From contig NZ_JAKRWF010000002.1 of the NCBI RefSeq assembly GCF_022352215.1, positions 310,001-374,000 of the forward strand: 64,000 nucleotides of DNA, read 5' to 3'. Position numbers and translations under genes: made by a program. The notes below the pieces were generated by a model. The model did no database searches, had not been told where the DNA came from, and saw only the letters and a program-made list of their open reading frames with translations. Shown in pieces: positions 48,766 to 60,207 of this stretch; the stretch's first letter is position 1; every line of letters starts with the position of its first letter. Source of the stretch: Flavihumibacter cheonanensis. GTDB lineage: Bacteria; Bacteroidota; Bacteroidia; Chitinophagales; Chitinophagaceae.

Positions 48766-48773
48766 TACATTTG
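48766..48773 (+). promoter_or_regulatory. Promoter -7 box TACATTTG of the first HMA-AraC regulator
   Basis: An exact TAnnTTTG match ending 5 nt before the ATG at 48779, so the mRNA should start at or next to the start codon. The 13-bp palindrome of the second regulator is not present here. Confidence 0.5.
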
Positions 48774-48778
48774 TAACT

Positions 48779-49354
48779 ATGGAAAAGCACCTATTTATTA
48801 AAAATATGGTTTGTGACCGATGCGTGATGGCGATCCGGCAGGAGTTGGATAGATATCAGATTCCTTACAATCATATTCAACTGGGTGAGGTCCATTTAAA
48901 ATCTGAACCAGATAAAGCCAACCTGGATGCCTTCCGCAGTTCGATCGAAAAATTAGGATTCGAAATACTGGACGACCGAAAATCAGCCATCGTTACAAAA
49001 ATCAAAACGATTATTCTTCAACTTATCAGAGGAAAAGATCAGGTTGAGCTGAACACCAAACTCTCCGTCCTGCTATCAGAGCGTCTCAATTTGGAGTATC
49101 ATTACCTGTCCTCACTCTTTTCAAGTATTGAAGGAATCACCATTGAAAAATATATCATTGCGCAACGCATAGAAAGAGTAAAGGAATTGTTATTGTACGA
49201 CGAACTTTCCTTAAGTGAAATTGCTGATAACCTGGGATATAGCAGTGTACAGCATCTCTCCTTGCAGTTTAAAAAAGTTACCGGATTAACACCCAGCCAT
49301 TTCAAAAAACTGAAAGAAAATAAGCGTAAACCCCTCGATCAGGTAGGCAGATAA
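48779..49354 (+). CDS. HMA domain fused to AraC-type HTH, first copy
   Basis: 191 residues. Residues 1-65 form a heavy-metal-associated fold with the metal motif M10-V-C12-D-R-C15 (MxCxxC family). Residues about 85-185 are an AraC-type double HTH: LSSLFSSIEGITIEKYIIAQRIERVKELL and LSLSEIADNLGYSSVQHLSLQFKKVTGLTPSHFKKLK. There is no sugar-binding cupin. Binding a soft metal such as Cu(I) through the cysteines could switch the HTH. A paralogue lies 80 bp downstream and then copA, which supports a copper role. The mechanism is inferred. Confidence 0.88.
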   Translation: MEKHLFIKNMVCDRCVMAIRQELDRYQIPYNHIQLGEVHLKSEPDKANLDAFRSSIEKLGFEILDDRKSAIVTKIKTIILQLIRGKDQVELNTKLSVLLSERLNLEYHYLSSLFSSIEGITIEKYIIAQRIERVKELLLYDELSLSEIADNLGYSSVQHLSLQFKKVTGLTPSHFKKLKENKRKPLDQVGR

Positions 49355-49374
49355 TTTTATAAGCCGCTCTACTT

Positions 49375-49413
49375 ATTGTATAACAATTACTGATTCTACA
49401 GTCCTGAACTTTG
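49375..49413 (+). promoter_or_regulatory. Palindromic operator plus promoter before the second regulator
   Basis: ATTGTATAACAAT (49375-49387) is a 13-bp palindrome. The -7-like box GAACTTTG (49406-49413, 7 of 8) starts exactly 31 bp after its first base. The same palindrome and the same 31-bp distance occur at 59901-59939. Confidence 0.7.
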
Positions 49414-49434
49414 CTCTATCAAATTGTTCAGGAC

Positions 49435-50010
49435 ATGAAACAACAACTTATTATAAAAGGGATGGTTTGCCAGCGGTGCATTAGCACTGTTCGTGACCAG
49501 TTAAGCTCATTACATATTGAGCCAAAAGTCGTAGAGTTGGGTGTCGTTCATATGGAGAACCCAATTCATCCGGCAGAAATGCTTTCACTTAAAAAGCGGT
49601 TGGACCAGGTAGGATTGTTCGTGCTGGATGATAAGCAGGATCTATTGGTCCGAAAAGTGAAGCAGTTGGTAGCGGAAGTATATTCAGGTGATTTTCATTT
49701 CCCTTACAATTTCAGGTTCTCTGATTTGGTGGAAACTAATGTTGGCAAACCATATGATCAGGTCAGCAAACTTTTTTCCTCCCTGGAGAATACAACCATT
49801 GAAAACTACATCAAACAATACCGGATTGATAAAATCAAAGAGTTGATGGCATATAGCAAAAACAGTCTCTCTGATATTGCATTTCGGCTTGGTTATAGTA
49901 GCACGGCACATTTATCCAAACAATTTAAAGATACCACCGGATTGAACCCTTCTTTTTTCAGAGAAAAAAAAGTCGGTAATCATTCCTTCATTCCAACAGA
50001 ATTATTATGA
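49435..50010 (+). CDS. HMA domain fused to AraC-type HTH, second copy
   Basis: 191 residues from the ATG at 49435. Layout as in the first copy: HMA part with M10-V-C12-Q-R-C15, then an AraC HTH (VSKLFSSLENTTIENYIKQYRIDKIKELM, SLSDIAFRLGYSSTAHLSKQFKDTTGLNPSFF). The HTH halves of the two copies are clearly related; the metal halves have diverged more. Its stop overlaps the copA start (ATGA, 50007-50010), so regulator and pump are translationally coupled. It is preceded by the ATTGTATAACAAT operator candidate, which it may itself bind. Confidence 0.88.
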   Translation: MKQQLIIKGMVCQRCISTVRDQLSSLHIEPKVVELGVVHMENPIHPAEMLSLKKRLDQVGLFVLDDKQDLLVRKVKQLVAEVYSGDFHFPYNFRFSDLVETNVGKPYDQVSKLFSSLENTTIENYIKQYRIDKIKELMAYSKNSLSDIAFRLGYSSTAHLSKQFKDTTGLNPSFFREKKVGNHSFIPTELL

Positions 50011-52268
50011 ACACGATAGCAATTAAATCCACCGACAGCAAACAAGATAAAAAAATAGTAAAAGCCAGTTTTCCAGTCCTGGAAATGACTTGTGCTGCCT
50101 GTGCAGTAAGTGTAGAATCCATGTTGAAATCTGTAGAGGGCGTAGCAGATGCGGGCGTAAATTTTGCCAATCAGTCTGCCTGGGTTTCCTATAACCCGGC
50201 ATTAACTGGTCCCGATCAATTTCAACAGACCGTTCGGTCCATTGGATATGACCTGGTAATCGATACAGAAAACCAGGATGATATCAAAGAAGCTGCTCAG
50301 CAAAAACACTATCAGCGGGTTAAAAAAAGAACCCTTTGGTCTTCTGTTCTATCGTTGCCAATTGTAATCATCGGTATGTTTTTTATGGATATGCCCTATG
50401 GTAACTGGATCATGATGGTTCTTTCTACGCCAGTGGTTTTCTATTTTGGTGGTCATTTCTTCGTGAACGCCTGGAAGCAGGCAAGAAACAAGAAAGCCAA
50501 TATGGATACCCTGGTTGCATTAAGTACCGGGGTTGCCTGGATATTCAGCACATTTACAACCATCTATCCTCAATTCTGGCATAACCAGGGCTTACATGCA
50601 CATGTATACTTTGAAGCAGCGGCGGTAGTAATCGCCTTCATTTCACTCGGTAAACTGCTGGAAGAGAAAGCCAAATCAAACACTTCTTCTGCACTGAAAA
50701 AATTAATGGGATTGCAACCAAAAACAGTAACGCTCGTTAAAAGCGATGGATCCTTTACTGAAATACCTATCCTGCAATTAAAAGTCGGAGAAAAAGTATT
50801 GGTTAAACCAGGTGAAAAAATTCCTGTGGATGGGGAGGTAGTAACCGGAGAATCCTATGTTGATGAAAGTATGATTAGTGGTGAACCGGTTCCTGTTTTA
50901 AAATCAGCCCGTGAAAAAGTATTTGCTGGTACTATCAATCAGAAGGGCTCCTTCCAGTTTGAAGCCCAAAAAGTAGGTGCGGACACCATACTGGCACAGA
51001 TTATCAGAATGGTACAGGAAGCGCAGGGTTCAAAAGCACCCGTACAAAAACTGGTGGATAAAATAGCCGGCATATTTGTACCAATAGTTATTGGGATCGC
51101 ACTTCTCACATTTCTTTCCTGGATGGTTTTGGGAGGTGAAAATGCATTGACACATGCGCTATTAACTGCTGTAACCGTACTGGTAATTGCCTGTCCATGT
51201 GCATTAGGATTAGCAACCCCAACGGCCATTATGGTTGGAGTTGGCAAAGGAGCTGAAAATAACATTCTTATAAAGGATGCGGAAAGCCTGGAACTGGCGC
51301 ATAAAGTGAATGCTGTGGTGCTGGATAAAACCGGAACCATTACAGAAGGAAAACCAACGGTGGAGCAGTTACTATTTGCTGAAAACAGGGCGAATCAAAA
51401 AATGCTTGAGCAAATTCTTTTATCAATAGAAAAATCCTCAGAACATCCTCTTGCAGATGCCGTAGTTCGACATATGGAAGAACAGGGAATAACACCCGTG
51501 GCAGTTGAGAAGGTGGAAAGTCTAACTGGTCTGGGTATACAAGCAACTTACCAAGGTGAAACTTATTATGTCGGAAATCTTCGATTACTGGAAAAGAATG
51601 GGATAACACTACCCAATGCTTTAAAGGCTGAAATCAGCCGCATGCAGGAAGCTGCCAAAACCGTCATTCTCTTTACCAATCAGCAGGACCTTCTTGCGAT
51701 TGTTTCCATAACGGACAAAATCAAAGAAAGCTCTGCACTGGCGATCAAAAAACTTCAAACAGCCGGCATTGAGGTGTACATGTTAACAGGGGATAACATT
51801 CATACTGCTGCTGCGATAGCAAGGGAAGTAGGCATTAAAAATTACAAAGCAGAGGTAATGCCAGCGGATAAAGCGGCTTTTGTAAAAGAACTACAGAAAA
51901 AAGGCACTGTGGTGGCAATGGTTGGAGATGGCATCAACGACAGTCATGCGTTGGCTACTGCGGATGTAAGTATTGCCATGGGTAAAGGTTCTGATATTGC
52001 GATGGATGTGGCCAAAATTACCCTGATCAGTTCTGACCTAAACAGCATTCCGAAAGCCCTCAAACTTTCTGGTAAAACGGTAAGGGCCATCCGTCAGAAT
52101 CTGTTCTGGGCATTTATTTACAATGTAATTGGGATTCCTATTGCTGCAGGTGTTCTTTATCCGGTTAACGGCTTTTTACTGGATCCGATGATAGCAGGAG
52201 CAGCCATGGCACTTAGTTCAGTAAGTGTAGTCGCAAACAGTCTGAGGTTGAAATATTCATCATTGTAG
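50007..52268 (+). CDS. copA: Copper-translocating P1B-type ATPase
   Basis: 753 residues. One N-terminal HMA domain with MTCAAC (27-32), eight membrane segments, the intramembrane metal motif CPC (about 396-398, IACPCALGLATPTA), the phosphorylation site D440-KTGT, TGES and the hinge MVGDGINDSHALATADVSIAMG. The SEHPLA ATP-binding motif is present. CPC with an MxCxxC-type domain indicates Cu(I)/Ag(I) export from the cytoplasm. It starts inside the stop of the second HMA-AraC regulator. A terminator follows. Confidence 0.96.
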   Translation: MNTIAIKSTDSKQDKKIVKASFPVLEMTCAACAVSVESMLKSVEGVADAGVNFANQSAWVSYNPALTGPDQFQQTVRSIGYDLVIDTENQDDIKEAAQQKHYQRVKKRTLWSSVLSLPIVIIGMFFMDMPYGNWIMMVLSTPVVFYFGGHFFVNAWKQARNKKANMDTLVALSTGVAWIFSTFTTIYPQFWHNQGLHAHVYFEAAAVVIAFISLGKLLEEKAKSNTSSALKKLMGLQPKTVTLVKSDGSFTEIPILQLKVGEKVLVKPGEKIPVDGEVVTGESYVDESMISGEPVPVLKSAREKVFAGTINQKGSFQFEAQKVGADTILAQIIRMVQEAQGSKAPVQKLVDKIAGIFVPIVIGIALLTFLSWMVLGGENALTHALLTAVTVLVIACPCALGLATPTAIMVGVGKGAENNILIKDAESLELAHKVNAVVLDKTGTITEGKPTVEQLLFAENRANQKMLEQILLSIEKSSEHPLADAVVRHMEEQGITPVAVEKVESLTGLGIQATYQGETYYVGNLRLLEKNGITLPNALKAEISRMQEAAKTVILFTNQQDLLAIVSITDKIKESSALAIKKLQTAGIEVYMLTGDNIHTAAAIAREVGIKNYKAEVMPADKAAFVKELQKKGTVVAMVGDGINDSHALATADVSIAMGKGSDIAMDVAKITLISSDLNSIPKALKLSGKTVRAIRQNLFWAFIYNVIGIPIAAGVLYPVNGFLLDPMIAGAAMALSSVSVVANSLRLKYSSL

Positions 52269-53905: not shown

Positions 53906-55240
53906 TCACTTTAATTCCAGCAAACCAACTGCTTTTCTAATACGAAGATCTACCAGTCTTATATTATACTTCCACAATAGCTCCTGAAGTTTTGCATTTG
54001 TAATTCCTAACTCAGCATCCGTCAACTCAAGCCGATTTCCTAGCCCGTTTCGGTATCGATCGTTCATCATAGAATAGTTAATTTGGGCAGCTTCTGTTCT
54101 TTGTTTTTGAATAGACAATTGTGTATACGCCTCTTTCAAGTTCAACTTAAGAGAAACTACTTCAGTGCTTATTTTATTCTTCAAATCCTCAAGCGCCAAT
54201 TCATGTTGATTTATACTGATTAAACCCTGTCTTTCTTTACTTTTCATTTTGCCACCCGAATAAACAGGAACACTTAAACGAACCCCAGCAAAAGATGTTC
54301 TCGGTAAGCTGTAATTCCAAAATTTTAAATTATCTGCCTGATTTTGTACCTGGTATTGGCCGATAAATGAAATCTGAGGTTTAAATAGTGACCGTGAAAA
54401 TTTTAATTCCTGTTTACTCTTTTCAATTAATTTAGTCTGAACCTGGAAATCCTTTCTGTTTTCGATTGCTATTACATTATCCATTTCAGTTTTTGTAGTA
54501 GGAATTTCAACTAAAAGAAGGCTGTCAATACACTCGATCTGTAAACTGTCATCCAAACCCATAAGATTCTTCATTTGAATCGATAACACCTGAATGTTGT
54601 TCTGTAACGATGAAATAGAAGCTAAAATACTCTGTATGGAGATAAAATTACTCAGTGTATCTGTTTTTAAATTTTTTCCCTGAAAAAATAAGGAACGGGA
54701 GTCCTTTAACGCCATTTCATTTCGATGCAGGCTTTGCTTCAACACATTAATCTGTTCTTTCTGATAAAGTATGATAAAATAGGTGGTAGCAATTTCAAAG
54801 GCAATTTCCTCCTCGGCTACTTTGCTGTTTAACTTACTTAAATCATAGTTGATTTCAGCCAATCGTATATTATTCTGAACAGCCGGATTATAAATTGGCA
54901 GATGTGCCAATACAGTTGCGTCAAATGCATACCGACCTCCAAACCTAGTATCCTGAATCTTAGGATCAAGTGATTCATTCCGGAGATAAATTACCGGGCG
55001 TTCAGTATAAACCTGGTAACTACTATTGAGGGTTACTGAAAGTTTAGTATTACTTTCTGCTTCCATTTTAAATTCGGCCGCTTTTTTACTTTCCAGCACT
55101 TTAATTTGTAGCTGGCGATTTCCCTTGGCTGCTAAATTCAAGGATTCCTGTAAACTGAGCGTTCTTACCTGAGCATTTAAACCAGGTCCGTTTAAAATCA
55201 AAAGGAAGAGGGAACTTATTATATAATAAGCGTATTTCAT
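53906..55240 (-). CDS. TolC family outer-membrane efflux channel
   Basis: 444 residues with a signal peptide ending near LNAQ24. Two OEP repeats of long alpha-helices are visible: LSLQESLNLAAKGNRQLQIKVLESKKAAEFKMEAES and, in the second half, NVIAIENRKDFQVQTKLIEKSKQELKFSRSLFKPQISFIGQYQVQ. The C-terminal helices include YRNGLGNRLELTDAELGITNAKLQEL, typical of TolC-like proteins. It is the outer channel of the RND pump; it starts 11 bp after the RND gene. Confidence 0.92.
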   Translation of the reverse strand: MKYAYYIISSLFLLILNGPGLNAQVRTLSLQESLNLAAKGNRQLQIKVLESKKAAEFKMEAESNTKLSVTLNSSYQVYTERPVIYLRNESLDPKIQDTRFGGRYAFDATVLAHLPIYNPAVQNNIRLAEINYDLSKLNSKVAEEEIAFEIATTYFIILYQKEQINVLKQSLHRNEMALKDSRSLFFQGKNLKTDTLSNFISIQSILASISSLQNNIQVLSIQMKNLMGLDDSLQIECIDSLLLVEIPTTKTEMDNVIAIENRKDFQVQTKLIEKSKQELKFSRSLFKPQISFIGQYQVQNQADNLKFWNYSLPRTSFAGVRLSVPVYSGGKMKSKERQGLISINQHELALEDLKNKISTEVVSLKLNLKEAYTQLSIQKQRTEAAQINYSMMNDRYRNGLGNRLELTDAELGITNAKLQELLWKYNIRLVDLRIRKAVGLLELK

Positions 55241-55251
55241 AAAAATATATT

Positions 55252-58200
55252 TTAAGAGATGTCGGTGGTAAGATTGGAATCAATTTCTTCAACAGCTACT
55301 TTCGTTTTTACTGCAGAGAAATAGGAATAAATGGCAGGAATAATAAACAGAGTAAGTATTCCAGCAAATACAAGTCCTCCTGTAATTACAATTCCAAGTG
55401 ATTGTCTGCTATTATTTGTTAGAGCAATGGGAAGCGCACCAAATATCATAGCCAGGGAAGTCATTAAAATTGGTCGGAAACGTTGTTCTGCAGCATGGGT
55501 AGCTGCTTCAATTCTAGACATTCCCGTTTGTTTTAAATGATTGGCAAATTCAACAATCAGAATTCCATTTTTTGTTATAAGACCTATCAACGTAATAATT
55601 CCAATCTGACTAAAGACATTCAGGCTCTGATCAAACCAATACAGGCTGAGCAAGGCTCCAGTGATGGCCATTGGTACTGTTAACATAATGATCAGTGGGT
55701 CCCGCAGGCTTTCAAATTGAGCAGCCAGGATCATATAAATCAGCAGCAAGGCCAGTATCAGCGTAAAACTGATATTCCCCTGGCTTTCTTCGTAGTCTCT
55801 CGATTGGCCAGCCAAACTTGTTTTAAAATTTTTACCCAATACTTCTTCTTTGATTCTATTCATCTCCTGAATACCATCCGCTAAACTTACTCCCGGAGCC
55901 AAACCAGCGGAAATGGTGGCAGAAGTGTACTGGTCATACCTATAGATAGCAGCCGGACTAATTCCTTCATCAACTGTAACAAGATTATCTACCGATATCA
56001 TTTGTCCATTTGATGAACGCACATAAACAGACCTAAGATCACTGATATCATCTCTCTTGTTTTTTTCAACCTGACCAATTACTTCGTATTGCCGATCGTT
56101 TAATAAAAAATATCCATACCGCTGACCTGAAAAGGACAATTGGAGGGCTCTTGCCACTTCTTGTATTGATACCCCCATCAAGGCAGCCTTTTTACGATCT
56201 ATGTTGATTTTTATTTCTGGTTTGTTAATCTTGAGGTCAGCATCTACGAACATTAGCTTTTTACTCTGTCTTGCAGCATTCAGAAAAGCTGGCAAAACCG
56301 CTGATAAACTATCAAGACCAGGTGCCTGTAAAACAAACTGAACCGGCATACCACCACCATATCTGGTACCGATTGTTGGGGGTAGATAAGGGAATAACAA
56401 TATATCTCTGAAATTTGCGGAGGCCATTCCATATTGATTGTATAATTCCTGTATGCTTTTCTTTCTTTCCTTCGGATCTTTCAAATAGATTGATTGAACT
56501 GCAAAACTTGTTGGAGCTGGTGCAGGAATAAAAGAAATGGCCACCATGGAATAGGTTTGATAAAGCCCATCCGTTGAATCATTTACATACTTGCCGACCT
56601 GGATCATGTTTTGTTTCATTTTCTCGAAAGAAACACCTTCAGGCGCGATAGCAATCAAACTCATATTACTCCGGTCTTCAATTGGAGCCAGTTCAGAGGG
56701 TAATTTTTTACCAACAAAATATATCAAAGCCGCGGTTCCGATCAGAAAAACAAATGCCAACCAGCGGTACCGCATAAAAGCTTTTAACCAGTTAGCATAG
56801 CCCTGATTCAACCAGAGAAAAAATGGCTCTGTAGTTCTGTATAGCCAATTGTGATTTTCCTGTTTTTTAAGCAAATAAGCACTAAGCATGGGTGATAGGG
56901 TCAGGGCAACAAATGCTGATACAAGCACTGAGCCTGATACTACTATTGCAAATTCTTTAAACAGTTGTCCACTTATTCCACCCATAAAAATGATCGGCAT
57001 AAATACTGCCGCCAAGGTGATGGTGGTAGAAATAACCGCAAAATAAATTTCCTTGCTTCCTGCAAATGCAGCCTGGATCGGATTCATCCCTTCCTCCACT
57101 TTCTTATAGATGTTCTCCAATACAACAATGGCATCATCAACTACTAATCCTATCGCCAGTACCAAACCCAGTAGCGTCAGTACATTAATAGAAAACCCTG
57201 CTATGTACATAATGAAGAAGGCCGATAATATTGAAACCGGGATCGCAATTACTGGTATTATGGTAGATCTCCAGTCCCTTAAAAACAGAAAGATGATTAT
57301 TACAACCAGCCCGAATGCAATAAGCAGGGTTTCTTCTACTTCTTTGATAGACTCTCTTACCGGCTTGGTAAAATCAAATCCAACAATCAACCGGTATTCA
57401 GAAGATATTTCCTTTTTTAGCTGGTCCAGTCTTTTATAGAACTCATCAACAACTTCGATGGCATTTGCGCCGCGTTGAATCTGAATGGCTACCCCAACTC
57501 CAGTAGTATTCTTGCCCCCAGTTTCATTGATAATTGCATTCCTTTCATTAAGCTCTCCCAATTCAGCAAAGCCAATATCTTTTAACCTGATCACTGAGCC
57601 ATTGACTTCTTTAATAATCATTTCATTAAAATCCGCAGCTGTGCTTAGTCTGCCCAATGTGCGTACACTTAATTCGTTGGCAGCACCTTCGATTCTTCCA
57701 GAAGGTAAATCAATATTCTCCTTGGCCAGAGCAATCCGAATATCTTCAGGCGTTAACTGATACGCTGATAATTTTACAGGATCAAATCGAAGACGCATGG
57801 CATATTTATGTTCTCCAACAATAGCTACCCGTTGAATACCAGGAATAGATTGCATACGATCCTTAATTACCGTAGAGGCAAGGTGGCTAACCTCTTTGAT
57901 ATCCTTCGTATCACTTTCCACTTCCAGAAAAGCTACCAGGTTATCAGGAGAGGTTGACTTTTCCACAATAGGAGGATCTACATCCGCCGGAATTTGGTTC
58001 TTTGATTTTGAAACCTTATCACGTACATCATTTAACGCATCCTCCAAATCTATATCCCTGGTAAACTCAACAGAAATTACACTTACCTGTTCCCTTGATT
58101 CAGATGAAATAGTTCTTACTCCATTTGCCTCTGCAATTGCCTCTTCAATTGGTTTGGTGATTTTTGAGGCAATAACATCCGGACTGGCACCTGGATAAAA

Positions 58201-58347
58201 CGTTACTACAGAAATGACCGGTGGTTCTGTTAATGGAAATTCCCTGACTCCAAGAAATCTCCAACCAACGATACCTGCTATCACTATAAGTGCAGAAAAT
58301 ACTGCAGCAAGTACCGGCTTCTTAATACTTAAAGAAGGTAAACTCAT
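55252..58347 (-). CDS. RND efflux pump inner-membrane subunit, HAE1-like
   Basis: 1031 residues, normal for AcrB-type transporters. The N-terminus LSIKKPVLAAVFSALIVIAG and REFPLTEPPVISVVTFYPGASPDVIASKITKPIEEAI are the usual first helix and porter domain. TM4 has VLAIGLVVDDAIVVLENI, with the paired aspartates of the proton relay. The second half repeats the layout (LIGLITKNGILIVEFANHL). The pattern is that of drug-efflux rather than metal-efflux RND pumps. It lies in an MFP-RND-TolC operon. Confidence 0.95.
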   Translation of the reverse strand: MSLPSLSIKKPVLAAVFSALIVIAGIVGWRFLGVREFPLTEPPVISVVTFYPGASPDVIASKITKPIEEAIAEANGVRTISSESREQVSVISVEFTRDIDLEDALNDVRDKVSKSKNQIPADVDPPIVEKSTSPDNLVAFLEVESDTKDIKEVSHLASTVIKDRMQSIPGIQRVAIVGEHKYAMRLRFDPVKLSAYQLTPEDIRIALAKENIDLPSGRIEGAANELSVRTLGRLSTAADFNEMIIKEVNGSVIRLKDIGFAELGELNERNAIINETGGKNTTGVGVAIQIQRGANAIEVVDEFYKRLDQLKKEISSEYRLIVGFDFTKPVRESIKEVEETLLIAFGLVVIIIFLFLRDWRSTIIPVIAIPVSILSAFFIMYIAGFSINVLTLLGLVLAIGLVVDDAIVVLENIYKKVEEGMNPIQAAFAGSKEIYFAVISTTITLAAVFMPIIFMGGISGQLFKEFAIVVSGSVLVSAFVALTLSPMLSAYLLKKQENHNWLYRTTEPFFLWLNQGYANWLKAFMRYRWLAFVFLIGTAALIYFVGKKLPSELAPIEDRSNMSLIAIAPEGVSFEKMKQNMIQVGKYVNDSTDGLYQTYSMVAISFIPAPAPTSFAVQSIYLKDPKERKKSIQELYNQYGMASANFRDILLFPYLPPTIGTRYGGGMPVQFVLQAPGLDSLSAVLPAFLNAARQSKKLMFVDADLKINKPEIKINIDRKKAALMGVSIQEVARALQLSFSGQRYGYFLLNDRQYEVIGQVEKNKRDDISDLRSVYVRSSNGQMISVDNLVTVDEGISPAAIYRYDQYTSATISAGLAPGVSLADGIQEMNRIKEEVLGKNFKTSLAGQSRDYEESQGNISFTLILALLLIYMILAAQFESLRDPLIIMLTVPMAITGALLSLYWFDQSLNVFSQIGIITLIGLITKNGILIVEFANHLKQTGMSRIEAATHAAEQRFRPILMTSLAMIFGALPIALTNNSRQSLGIVITGGLVFAGILTLFIIPAIYSYFSAVKTKVAVEEIDSNLTTDIS

Positions 58348-58368
58348 AAAATTATATTTTACTTGGAA

Positions 58369-59433
58369 TTATTTAATGCCTGCAATTGAAACAGGCATAT
58401 TGTCTCCTGCACGAAGCATATTACTGATCATCACGGTATCACCTTCCGCAATTCCATCCGTAATTCTTACCTCCTGGTCTGTACGGTTCTCAACTTTAAC
58501 CGGACTCAATTTTGTCTTACCCTCCTTAACCAGGAAAACATTATAACCTGTTCCCCCCGGAATTAATGCTTCAGTAGGAATTAAAATTGCCCTTTCATGT
58601 TCTTCCGATGTAGTAAAGAATATTTTAGCAGACATTCCTGCCCTGATGTCCTCTTTGTTTGATTCAATAAGCGCCAGAACTTTTATAGTCCTGGATGATT
58701 CATTCAGATTTGCTTCAGCTGAAGTAATAATTGCATGAATTGGCTTGGCACTTGTTTCTGTTTGAAAACGTATGCGTTTGCCATTTTTTACAAGGGATAT
58801 GTACTTTTCTGGAACAGTAAACTCTATTTTTGTATTGGCCCTTTCAACCAAAGTAACCATTGGCATTCCCGGACTTACCAATGTTCCTTTAAATACTTTG
58901 GAAATGCCTACTATGCCATCAAATGGCGCATGAATGACTGTTTTTGATAACTCTACCTGTACTATATTCATAGCAGCTTCAAGTGACTGAAGCTTTGATA
59001 ATGCTATATCGTATTCTTCCTGACGTACTGTTTCAGTTTTCAATAATTCCCTCAGCCGGTTTTCGCTGATTCTTGCCAGATTCAACTCCGCCTTTACCTG
59101 ACCCATTCTCGCAAGTATGTCTGCATCATCCAGCTTATAAAGTAGTTGTCCCCTATTTACACTCGACCCATCTTTAAAATAAACCTGTGTAACTTTTCTG
59201 GACAACTCACTCATGATGTCAACTGTCCGGTTAGGAACGATTGAACCTGCAATGGTTTCTACTTCGTTTAACTGCAATTTTTTGGCAATAGTTACATCTA
59301 CCGGAAGCGAGGAAGCCGGAACAGGGGCTGGTGTCTCCTCTTGCTTATTTGCTGATGTTCCAGAACCACATCCAATTACTGTAAATAAGATACCTATTAC
59401 AGTGAAGGTTTGTATTACATTTAGCTTGTGCAT
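58369..59433 (-). CDS. RND efflux periplasmic adaptor lipoprotein
   Basis: 354 residues. A lipobox TVIGCG puts the lipidated cysteine near residue 22. The lipoyl/barrel-sandwich hybrid (VDIMSELSRKVTQVYFKDGSSVNRGQLLYKLDD), alpha-hairpin (ILARMGQVKAELNLARISENRLRELL) and beta-barrel (IHAPFDGIVGISKVFKGTLVSPGMPMVTLV) are in the usual order. It bridges RND and TolC. A TAGCTTTG box on the minus strand (59453-59460) lies 19 nt upstream of the ATG. Confidence 0.93.
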   Translation of the reverse strand: MHKLNVIQTFTVIGILFTVIGCGSGTSANKQEETPAPVPASSLPVDVTIAKKLQLNEVETIAGSIVPNRTVDIMSELSRKVTQVYFKDGSSVNRGQLLYKLDDADILARMGQVKAELNLARISENRLRELLKTETVRQEEYDIALSKLQSLEAAMNIVQVELSKTVIHAPFDGIVGISKVFKGTLVSPGMPMVTLVERANTKIEFTVPEKYISLVKNGKRIRFQTETSAKPIHAIITSAEANLNESSRTIKVLALIESNKEDIRAGMSAKIFFTTSEEHERAILIPTEALIPGGTGYNVFLVKEGKTKLSPVKVENRTDQEVRITDGIAEGDTVMISNMLRAGDNMPVSIAGIK

Positions 59434-59521
59434 TTGATCATTTTTTATAATACAAAGCTATCATTGGCGGAACCCTTTCATATTATACTATATCCTTTCT
59501 TAGTTATATTATTCAAAGCAT

Positions 59522-59765: not shown

Positions 59766-59900
59766 TTTGAAATATTTAAGCAGGCAAACTTAGACCGGAT
59801 ACAACTGCCCTTTTTTATATCCAAGCATATATTATTTATACTATTTCAATCAACTTCCTCCAATTCGGTCTATCATAAAATATTACACTTTATAGTAGTA

Positions 59901-59939
59901 ATTGTATAACAATCGCCTTACAAGGCCATCCTACCTTTG
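59901..59939 (+). promoter_or_regulatory. Palindromic operator plus promoter of the HMA chaperone gene
   Basis: ATTGTATAACAAT (59901-59913) precedes the exact -7 box TACCTTTG (59932-59939). The distance from first base to first base is 31 bp, identical to 49375-49406 before the second HMA-AraC regulator. Confidence 0.72.
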
Positions 59940-59991: not shown

Positions 59992-60207
59992 ATGGAAACG
60001 TTGAAATTCAAAACAACCATCAAATGTTCCGGATGTATTGAAAAAGCTACTCCGTTTTTGAATGAAGCAGTTGGTGAAGACAATTGGGAGGTAGATGTTA
60101 CCGATACCAGAAAAGTATTAACAATCGTGAATGAAAAGAATATTGCAAAAGAAGATGTGATCAAGGCTGTTTATGATGCCGGATACAAAGCAGAATCGCT
60201 GAGTTAA
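59992..60207 (+). CDS. Stand-alone heavy-metal-associated (CopZ-like) chaperone
   Basis: 71 residues from the ATG at 59992; an upstream in-frame start would place 30 residues across the promoter. The HMA fold (KFKTTIKCSGCIEKATPFLNEAVGEDNWEVDVTDTRKVLTIVNEKNIAKEDVIKAVYDAGYKAE) has the metal pair C12 and C15 with KCSGC, the same positions as in both regulators. It would carry Cu(I) to CopA or to the regulators. A terminator ends the unit, which is controlled by the palindromic operator candidate. Confidence 0.9.
   Translation: METLKFKTTIKCSGCIEKATPFLNEAVGEDNWEVDVTDTRKVLTIVNEKNIAKEDVIKAVYDAGYKAESLS

Follow-up and report, generated by a model that had tools for sequence, protein, structure and literature searches.

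A family of HMA-AraC fusion regulators in Bacteroidota, linked to copper-exporter genes and to a predicted AraC-type operator of 21-bp period

In the 64-kb stretch of the Flavihumibacter cheonanensis genome analyzed here (the window), two forward-strand genes, HA1 (48779..49354) and HA2 (49435..50010), lie 5' of copA (50007..52268, forward strand), which encodes a Cu(I)-type P1B ATPase and sits directly downstream of HA2. Each regulator is 191 residues long and consists of an HMA-like domain, with the loop MVCDRC in HA1 and MVCQRC in HA2, followed by an AraC-type double HTH. HA1 ends in a C-terminal KRKPLD tail, and HA2 is without one.

On sequence grounds, an HMA-AraC protein is a member of the AraC family through its HTH. 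The Pfam model HTH_18 (AraC double HTH) matches HA1 and HA2 with 65.5 and 59.8 bits (curated cut-off, 33.6) and matches all 21 aligned family members. The HMA model PF00403 gives 15.5 and 13.0 bits in the same two proteins, below its curated cut-off of 24.8, and detects only 3 of the 21 members at E ≤ 0.01. In an alignment of 21 sequences, M10, C12 and C15 never vary and R14 hardly does. A profile built from 21 relatives matches CopZ (E = 4.8e-5), ATP7B and the metal domains of bacterial CopA in its N-terminal part and AraC DNA-binding domains in the remainder. In the AlphaFold models of HA1 and HA2, a helix links a β-α-β-β-α-β domain to two HTHs. In structure comparisons, AraC domains rank first and HMA proteins next for the N-terminal part; as ACT domains reach the same Z as HMA proteins for that part, the HMA call rests mainly on sequence. 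We call the sensor HMA-like on the strength of profile and fold, its scores being under the cut-off set by Pfam, and infer that it binds Cu(I) or another soft metal. A preliminary description of the locus had reported tandem fusions of an MxCxxC metal domain to an AraC HTH at copA. This observation is confirmed, with the fusion borne out by HTH_18, the profile matches and the models. Its further suggestion, that a chaperone fold serves as the sensory domain of an AraC-type factor, holds to the extent that this fold replaces the usual sensor; sequence points to metal sensing as its probable role.

The double HTH is common to HA1, HA2 and the AraC/XylS regulators (AraC, MarA and SoxS, and the DNA-binding domains of AraT and YesN). 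AraC/XylS regulators have a cupin or receiver domain, whereas HA1 and HA2 have an HMA-like metal domain instead, and no chain among the PDB matches listed spans both HMA-like and AraC domains. Fold and MxCxxC loop are those of CopZ, Atx1 and ATP7B, but HA1 and HA2 differ from these proteins in being fused to a DNA-binding domain, in scoring below the Pfam HMA cut-off and in belonging to a family that almost always has R (or H) in front of the second Cys. Ada, whose N-terminal domain (1u8b) is among the PDB matches listed, likewise joins a Cys-rich metal-binding domain to an AraC-type HTH. In Ada, a zinc-bound Cys accepts a methyl group from DNA, and the domain differs from the HMA-like domain in both fold and role.

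Exporters of the copA type are controlled by CueR, CsoR, CopY and CusRS, proteins unrelated to HA1 and HA2. No known copper sensor was recognized among the genes read around the locus, seven neighbors having been run against Pfam. The whole genome contains no match to CsoR (PF02583) at E ≤ 0.001, and its best match to CueR (TIGR02044), on another contig, scores 27.3 bits against a cut-off of 147.4. These data agree with the earlier view that the usual copper sensors are absent nearby.

Of 296 genomes sampled from the phylum, 142 contain relatives of HA1 and HA2 at E ≤ 1e-12; at E ≤ 1e-15, relatives were found in 51 of 99 genomes. This search for proteins with both domains, together with their neighbors, had been proposed in the preliminary description, which treated the fusions as a local feature; their wide distribution argues against that treatment. 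Seven relatives, including HA1 and HA2, are present in F. cheonanensis, one preceding CusA-type genes and one located 4.2 kb before a second copA. We named 80 loci, the best 80 of at least 562 confirmed stretches and hence a set that favors relatives close to HA1; their titles are Bacteroidota or Ignavibacteria. Matches also occur in 34 plasmid records, where most of the corresponding features are named AraC family transcriptional regulator or HTH protein. A P1B ATPase flanks 57 of these best 80 loci, mostly immediately downstream. In the even sample of 99 genomes, at least 40 of 94 relatives have a P1B ATPase within 8 kb; it is downstream on the same strand for at least 39 within 8 kb and at least 32 within 2 kb. 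The coupling to copA is thus upheld, both by the 4-bp overlap (ATGA) between HA2 and copA and by the recurrence of the linkage in relatives. For 54 of the 94, no P1B ATPase lies within 8 kb among those listed. We examined the surroundings of 47 of these (six were left out, and the region for L170 missed its gene; one of the 47, L165, gave no profile match). Such relatives adjoin small HMA proteins, RND pumps, phytochrome-like kinases, response regulators or unplaced genes.

For regulation, we trained a weight matrix on 49 regulator-to-copA gaps, excluding the window. The predicted operator comprises two direct half-sites, AAATnnTAyAA, with a period of 21 bp, and is found in 46 of the 49 gaps. 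The three gaps without it are all HA2-to-copA gaps of tandem loci; in tandem loci the operator lies before HA2 instead (5 of 5, scores 19 to 38, with TTTG at 22 bp in three). Leave-one-out analysis recovered the same site in 46 of 46 cases, with a score above 9 in 45. The two half-sites correlate at 0.76 at a direct shift of 21, the next best values being 0.34 (direct) and 0.58 (inverted). The I1-I2 sites of AraC itself are likewise direct repeats of a half-site, located close upstream of the promoter. The same best 80 of at least 562 loci contain 101 sites with a score above 15, the training sites among them; TTTG follows at 21–23 bp in 93, and the reversed matrix yields no sites. Of the 142 sites scoring above 12 in all loci scanned, 111 have TTTG at exactly 22 bp, 12 at 21 bp and 1 at 23 bp, and none has it at 20 or 24 bp. 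A conserved AraC-type operator with a 21-bp period is, as far as sequence can indicate, new here.

One could suppose that this site belongs to another regulator, the HMA-AraC gene being merely linked to copA. The observation in favor of this idea comes from eight Cu-ATPase genes that lie beside or near a regulator but outside the training set: six have a site and two lack one. Direct repeats of 21-bp period, however, fit an AraC-type protein, and in tandem loci the site moves along with the regulator gene. Sites also occur beside relatives that have no copA nearby. None of 20 hand-picked copA upstream regions from regulator-free genomes contains a site (best score, 5.2). For copA-type genes that are not direct neighbors of a regulator, although their genomes carry one, only 5 of 20 hand-picked upstream regions score at least 9.9, three of them with TTTG at 22 bp. 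We consider control by some other regulator very unlikely, and it is very probable, from these patterns, that the operator is bound by HMA-AraC proteins.

The fixed spacing suggests where the operator would lie in the promoter. The −7 box of flavobacterial sigma-A promoters reads TAnnTTTG and spans −12 to −5 (PMC9723704). With the box in this position, the operator would extend from about −66 to −31, its inner half falling in the −33 region. Class II activators sit at about such a position. Alternatively, HA1 could be a repressor that leaves the operator upon copper binding, as CsoR and CopY do; AraC proteins are able to repress, and the direction of control is not readable from sequence. Yet a site at about −66 to −31 leaves the −7 box and the start free, and an activator is better suited by the fixed distance from operator to box and by the lack of TTG at −33, which is seen in 0 of 111 sites and is partly forced by the motif itself. 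Repression seems quite unlikely on these grounds.

In the window, the matrix exceeds 8 at only two places, before HA2-copA and before a small HMA-like gene. The first predicted operator (49352..49387, forward strand; score 12.7) has its two direct half-sites 21 bp apart, starts inside the HA1 stop codon and is among the weaker sites of the family. Exactly 22 bp on is the TTTG (49410..49413, forward strand) of a predicted −7 box, GAACTTTG, whose first base departs from the consensus. The second (59878..59913, forward strand; score 19.4) is followed 22 bp on by TTTG at 59936 and then by a gene that we read from the sequence as a small HMA-like CxGC protein (59992..60207, forward strand). PF00403 did not list this protein, although it did list a small protein that resembles it and is encoded behind the second copA (C110:1687774); the gene at 59992 is a probable member of the regulon. 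A weak third site (59479..59514, reverse strand) matches the pattern exactly, has a matrix score of only 1.2 and carries TTTG 22 bp on. It precedes RND efflux genes for an adaptor, a pump and an outer-membrane protein (53906..59433, reverse strand), the latter two assigned by Pfam and the adaptor from its sequence, which are possible members of the regulon.

Elsewhere in the genome, matrix scores reach 35.7 at the second copA, 31.9 at the small HMA gene behind it and 19.6 at a gene beside another relative. Allowing up to one mismatch, a fitted pattern matches eight places in the whole genome, six with TTTG at 22 bp and two with none, and the reversed pattern matches nowhere; five of these places are not independent proof, because the pattern was written to fit those five matrix-found sites. 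The pattern alone added the sixth, located upstream of the RND genes, and its matrix score is weak. An operator of this kind would allow the regulon to be read directly from genomes.

Upstream of HA1, a predicted −7 box, TACATTTG (48766..48773, forward strand), fits TAnnTTTG. No operator was found in the 200 bp upstream of the gene (best score, −6.0). The same holds for the family: only 1 of 80 first regulators (best 80 of at least 562) has an operator before itself. We therefore reject self-regulation of HA1-type genes through the operator as a rule; HA1 looks constitutive, and HA2 induced together with copA.

All 82 members that have a gene resembling CopA, CusA or CusB within 5 kb carry CxxC (L085, whose start was trimmed at the motif, was counted by hand); it is missing in 14 of the 54 members without such a gene near. 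On the tree, this loss is a single event, in a clade with many members beside phytochrome-like kinases or response regulators. We rejected its use as repeated evidence: it is one change, and an independent-pairs test does not support it. An ATPase gene follows within 5 kb downstream for 71 regulators, the two copies of a tandem pair sharing one; 65 of the 71 have CxRC and 6 have CxHC. The CxRC-linked ATPases carry the full set of Cu signature motifs in 61 of 65 cases, the rest being two truncated genes and two with C-terminal extensions. The signature is lacking in all six CxHC-linked ATPases, and the two that were checked score above the Cd-family cut-off and below the Cu cut-off (Zn/Cd type). 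By sequence, then, the cysteine loop tracks the exporter, CxRC going with Cu-ATPases and CxHC with ATPases lacking the Cu signature, the CxHC members forming one clade of seven.

These data bear on the possibility that CxxC is not a sensor of free copper, and instead acts as a redox switch or a buffer or receives copper from a chaperone or the exporter. A CxxC is capable of forming a disulfide, and some members that keep it adjoin phytochrome or heme oxygenase genes (L019, L167). However, none of the 82 metal-linked members lacks it, and the residue before the second Cys changes with exporter class; although each of these patterns reflects one clade, they make such roles rather improbable.

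The branch without CxxC has MVSxRC or no motif (L141, L142, L149, L150, L153–L155, L158, L160–L162, L164, L168). Several of its loci keep an operator-like site with TTTG at 21–23 bp. As phytochrome- and response-regulator-linked relatives, some without CxxC, have such sites, the DNA switch is not specific to copper alone. Four of the seven CxHC loci (L135, L139, L140, L146) show, by eye only, a TGCA-type half-site repeat with seemingly 21 bp between half-sites; it sits between the Zn/Cd-linked regulator and its ATPase.

The tandem arrangement is found in 5 of the 80 named loci (again the best 80 of at least 562), from Chitinophaga, another member of the Chitinophagaceae, Flavobacterium, Rhodocytophaga and a Cytophagales genome. 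HA1 and HA2 are 37% identical and fall in two separate clades of a quick tree with long branches, in which HA2 appears as W_12; on both counts, we reject a recent duplication as the origin of the pair. All second copies group in one clade (SH-aLRT 96) together with two further relatives. In HA1 and its relatives, the KRKPLD-like tail lies after the second HTH. By a loose pattern, it is absent in 8 of 8 members of the HA2 clade and present in 73 of 75 other metal-linked members.

The preliminary description suggested that the two copies could form heterodimers or respond to different metals or levels, a model of two equal sensors. Both copies do keep CxRC and the HTH, and the recurrence of tandem pairs is compatible with this model. 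Their low identity, their separate clades, the operator before HA2 only and the missing tail in the HA2 clade nonetheless speak against it, and we give it only a modest chance. Because the tail has been lost, we favor a damping role for HA2, a guess based on phylogeny, position and tail loss.

The explanation that we consider best, and reasonably probable, is that HA1 activates HA2-copA in response to Cu(I), with HA2 as an induced partner. Weighing against it are the HMA scores below the Pfam cut-off, the confinement of CxxC loss and of CxHC to one clade each, the operator-like sites of relatives beside phytochromes and response regulators, the Cu-ATPase genes and copA-type regions that lack a site, the 54 relatives with no P1B ATPase listed within 8 kb and the rather low score of the HA2 site. 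HA1, expressed from its own operator-free promoter, would act as a one-component cytosolic sensor of Cu(I) (or Ag(I)), its HMA-like domain taking metal through the MVCxRC cysteines and switching the attached AraC domain. Two AraC units would then occupy the direct half-sites in the HA2-copA promoter, which repeat with a period of 21 bp and span about −66 to −31, the inner unit replacing the −33 element; by contact with RNA polymerase the two would activate transcription in the class II manner. HA2 and copA would be induced together. The small HMA-like protein at 59992 would probably join them, which is less certain for the RND pump. HA2, which retains the metal site and DNA-binding domain and lacks the C-terminal tail, would most likely adjust or damp the response.

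For the family as a whole, the balance tips slightly toward a broader scheme. HMA-AraC proteins would be one-component sensors that serve Bacteroidota in place of CueR, CsoR or CopY, with CxRC directing the response to copper and CxHC to zinc or cadmium. Their operator of 21-bp period, at a fixed distance, would recruit sigma-A polymerase; where two regulators lie in tandem, the second copy, induced and without a tail, would close a feedback loop. One branch would have lost the metal site and taken the DNA switch to phytochrome and response-regulator genes. If this reading is right, about half of the sampled genomes of a large phylum carry an undescribed kind of metal sensor, in which a chaperone fold serves as the switch of an AraC protein. 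The family would have been overlooked because its sensor domain scores under the Pfam cut-off. No earlier account of HMA-AraC regulators was found in the literature covered, which includes subscription papers incompletely, and metal sensing by a chaperone-fused AraC regulator seems not to have been described previously. Members that retain, alter or lack the metal loop, with a DNA side that differs little between them, also make the family a natural series for comparison.

Two further features of the promoters may be mentioned. A perfect 9-bp inverted repeat (49401–49434) has the predicted −7 box of HA2-copA between its arms and runs up to the start codon. None of 200 shuffles reaches it; the five other tandem loci lack it, and we left it out of the model. 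Finally, 4–5 bases separate ATG from the TTTG in the likely −7 box in the window (48766–48779) and for the first regulator of L059, L061 and L063, which suggests that the regulator mRNA is nearly leaderless in these genomes.
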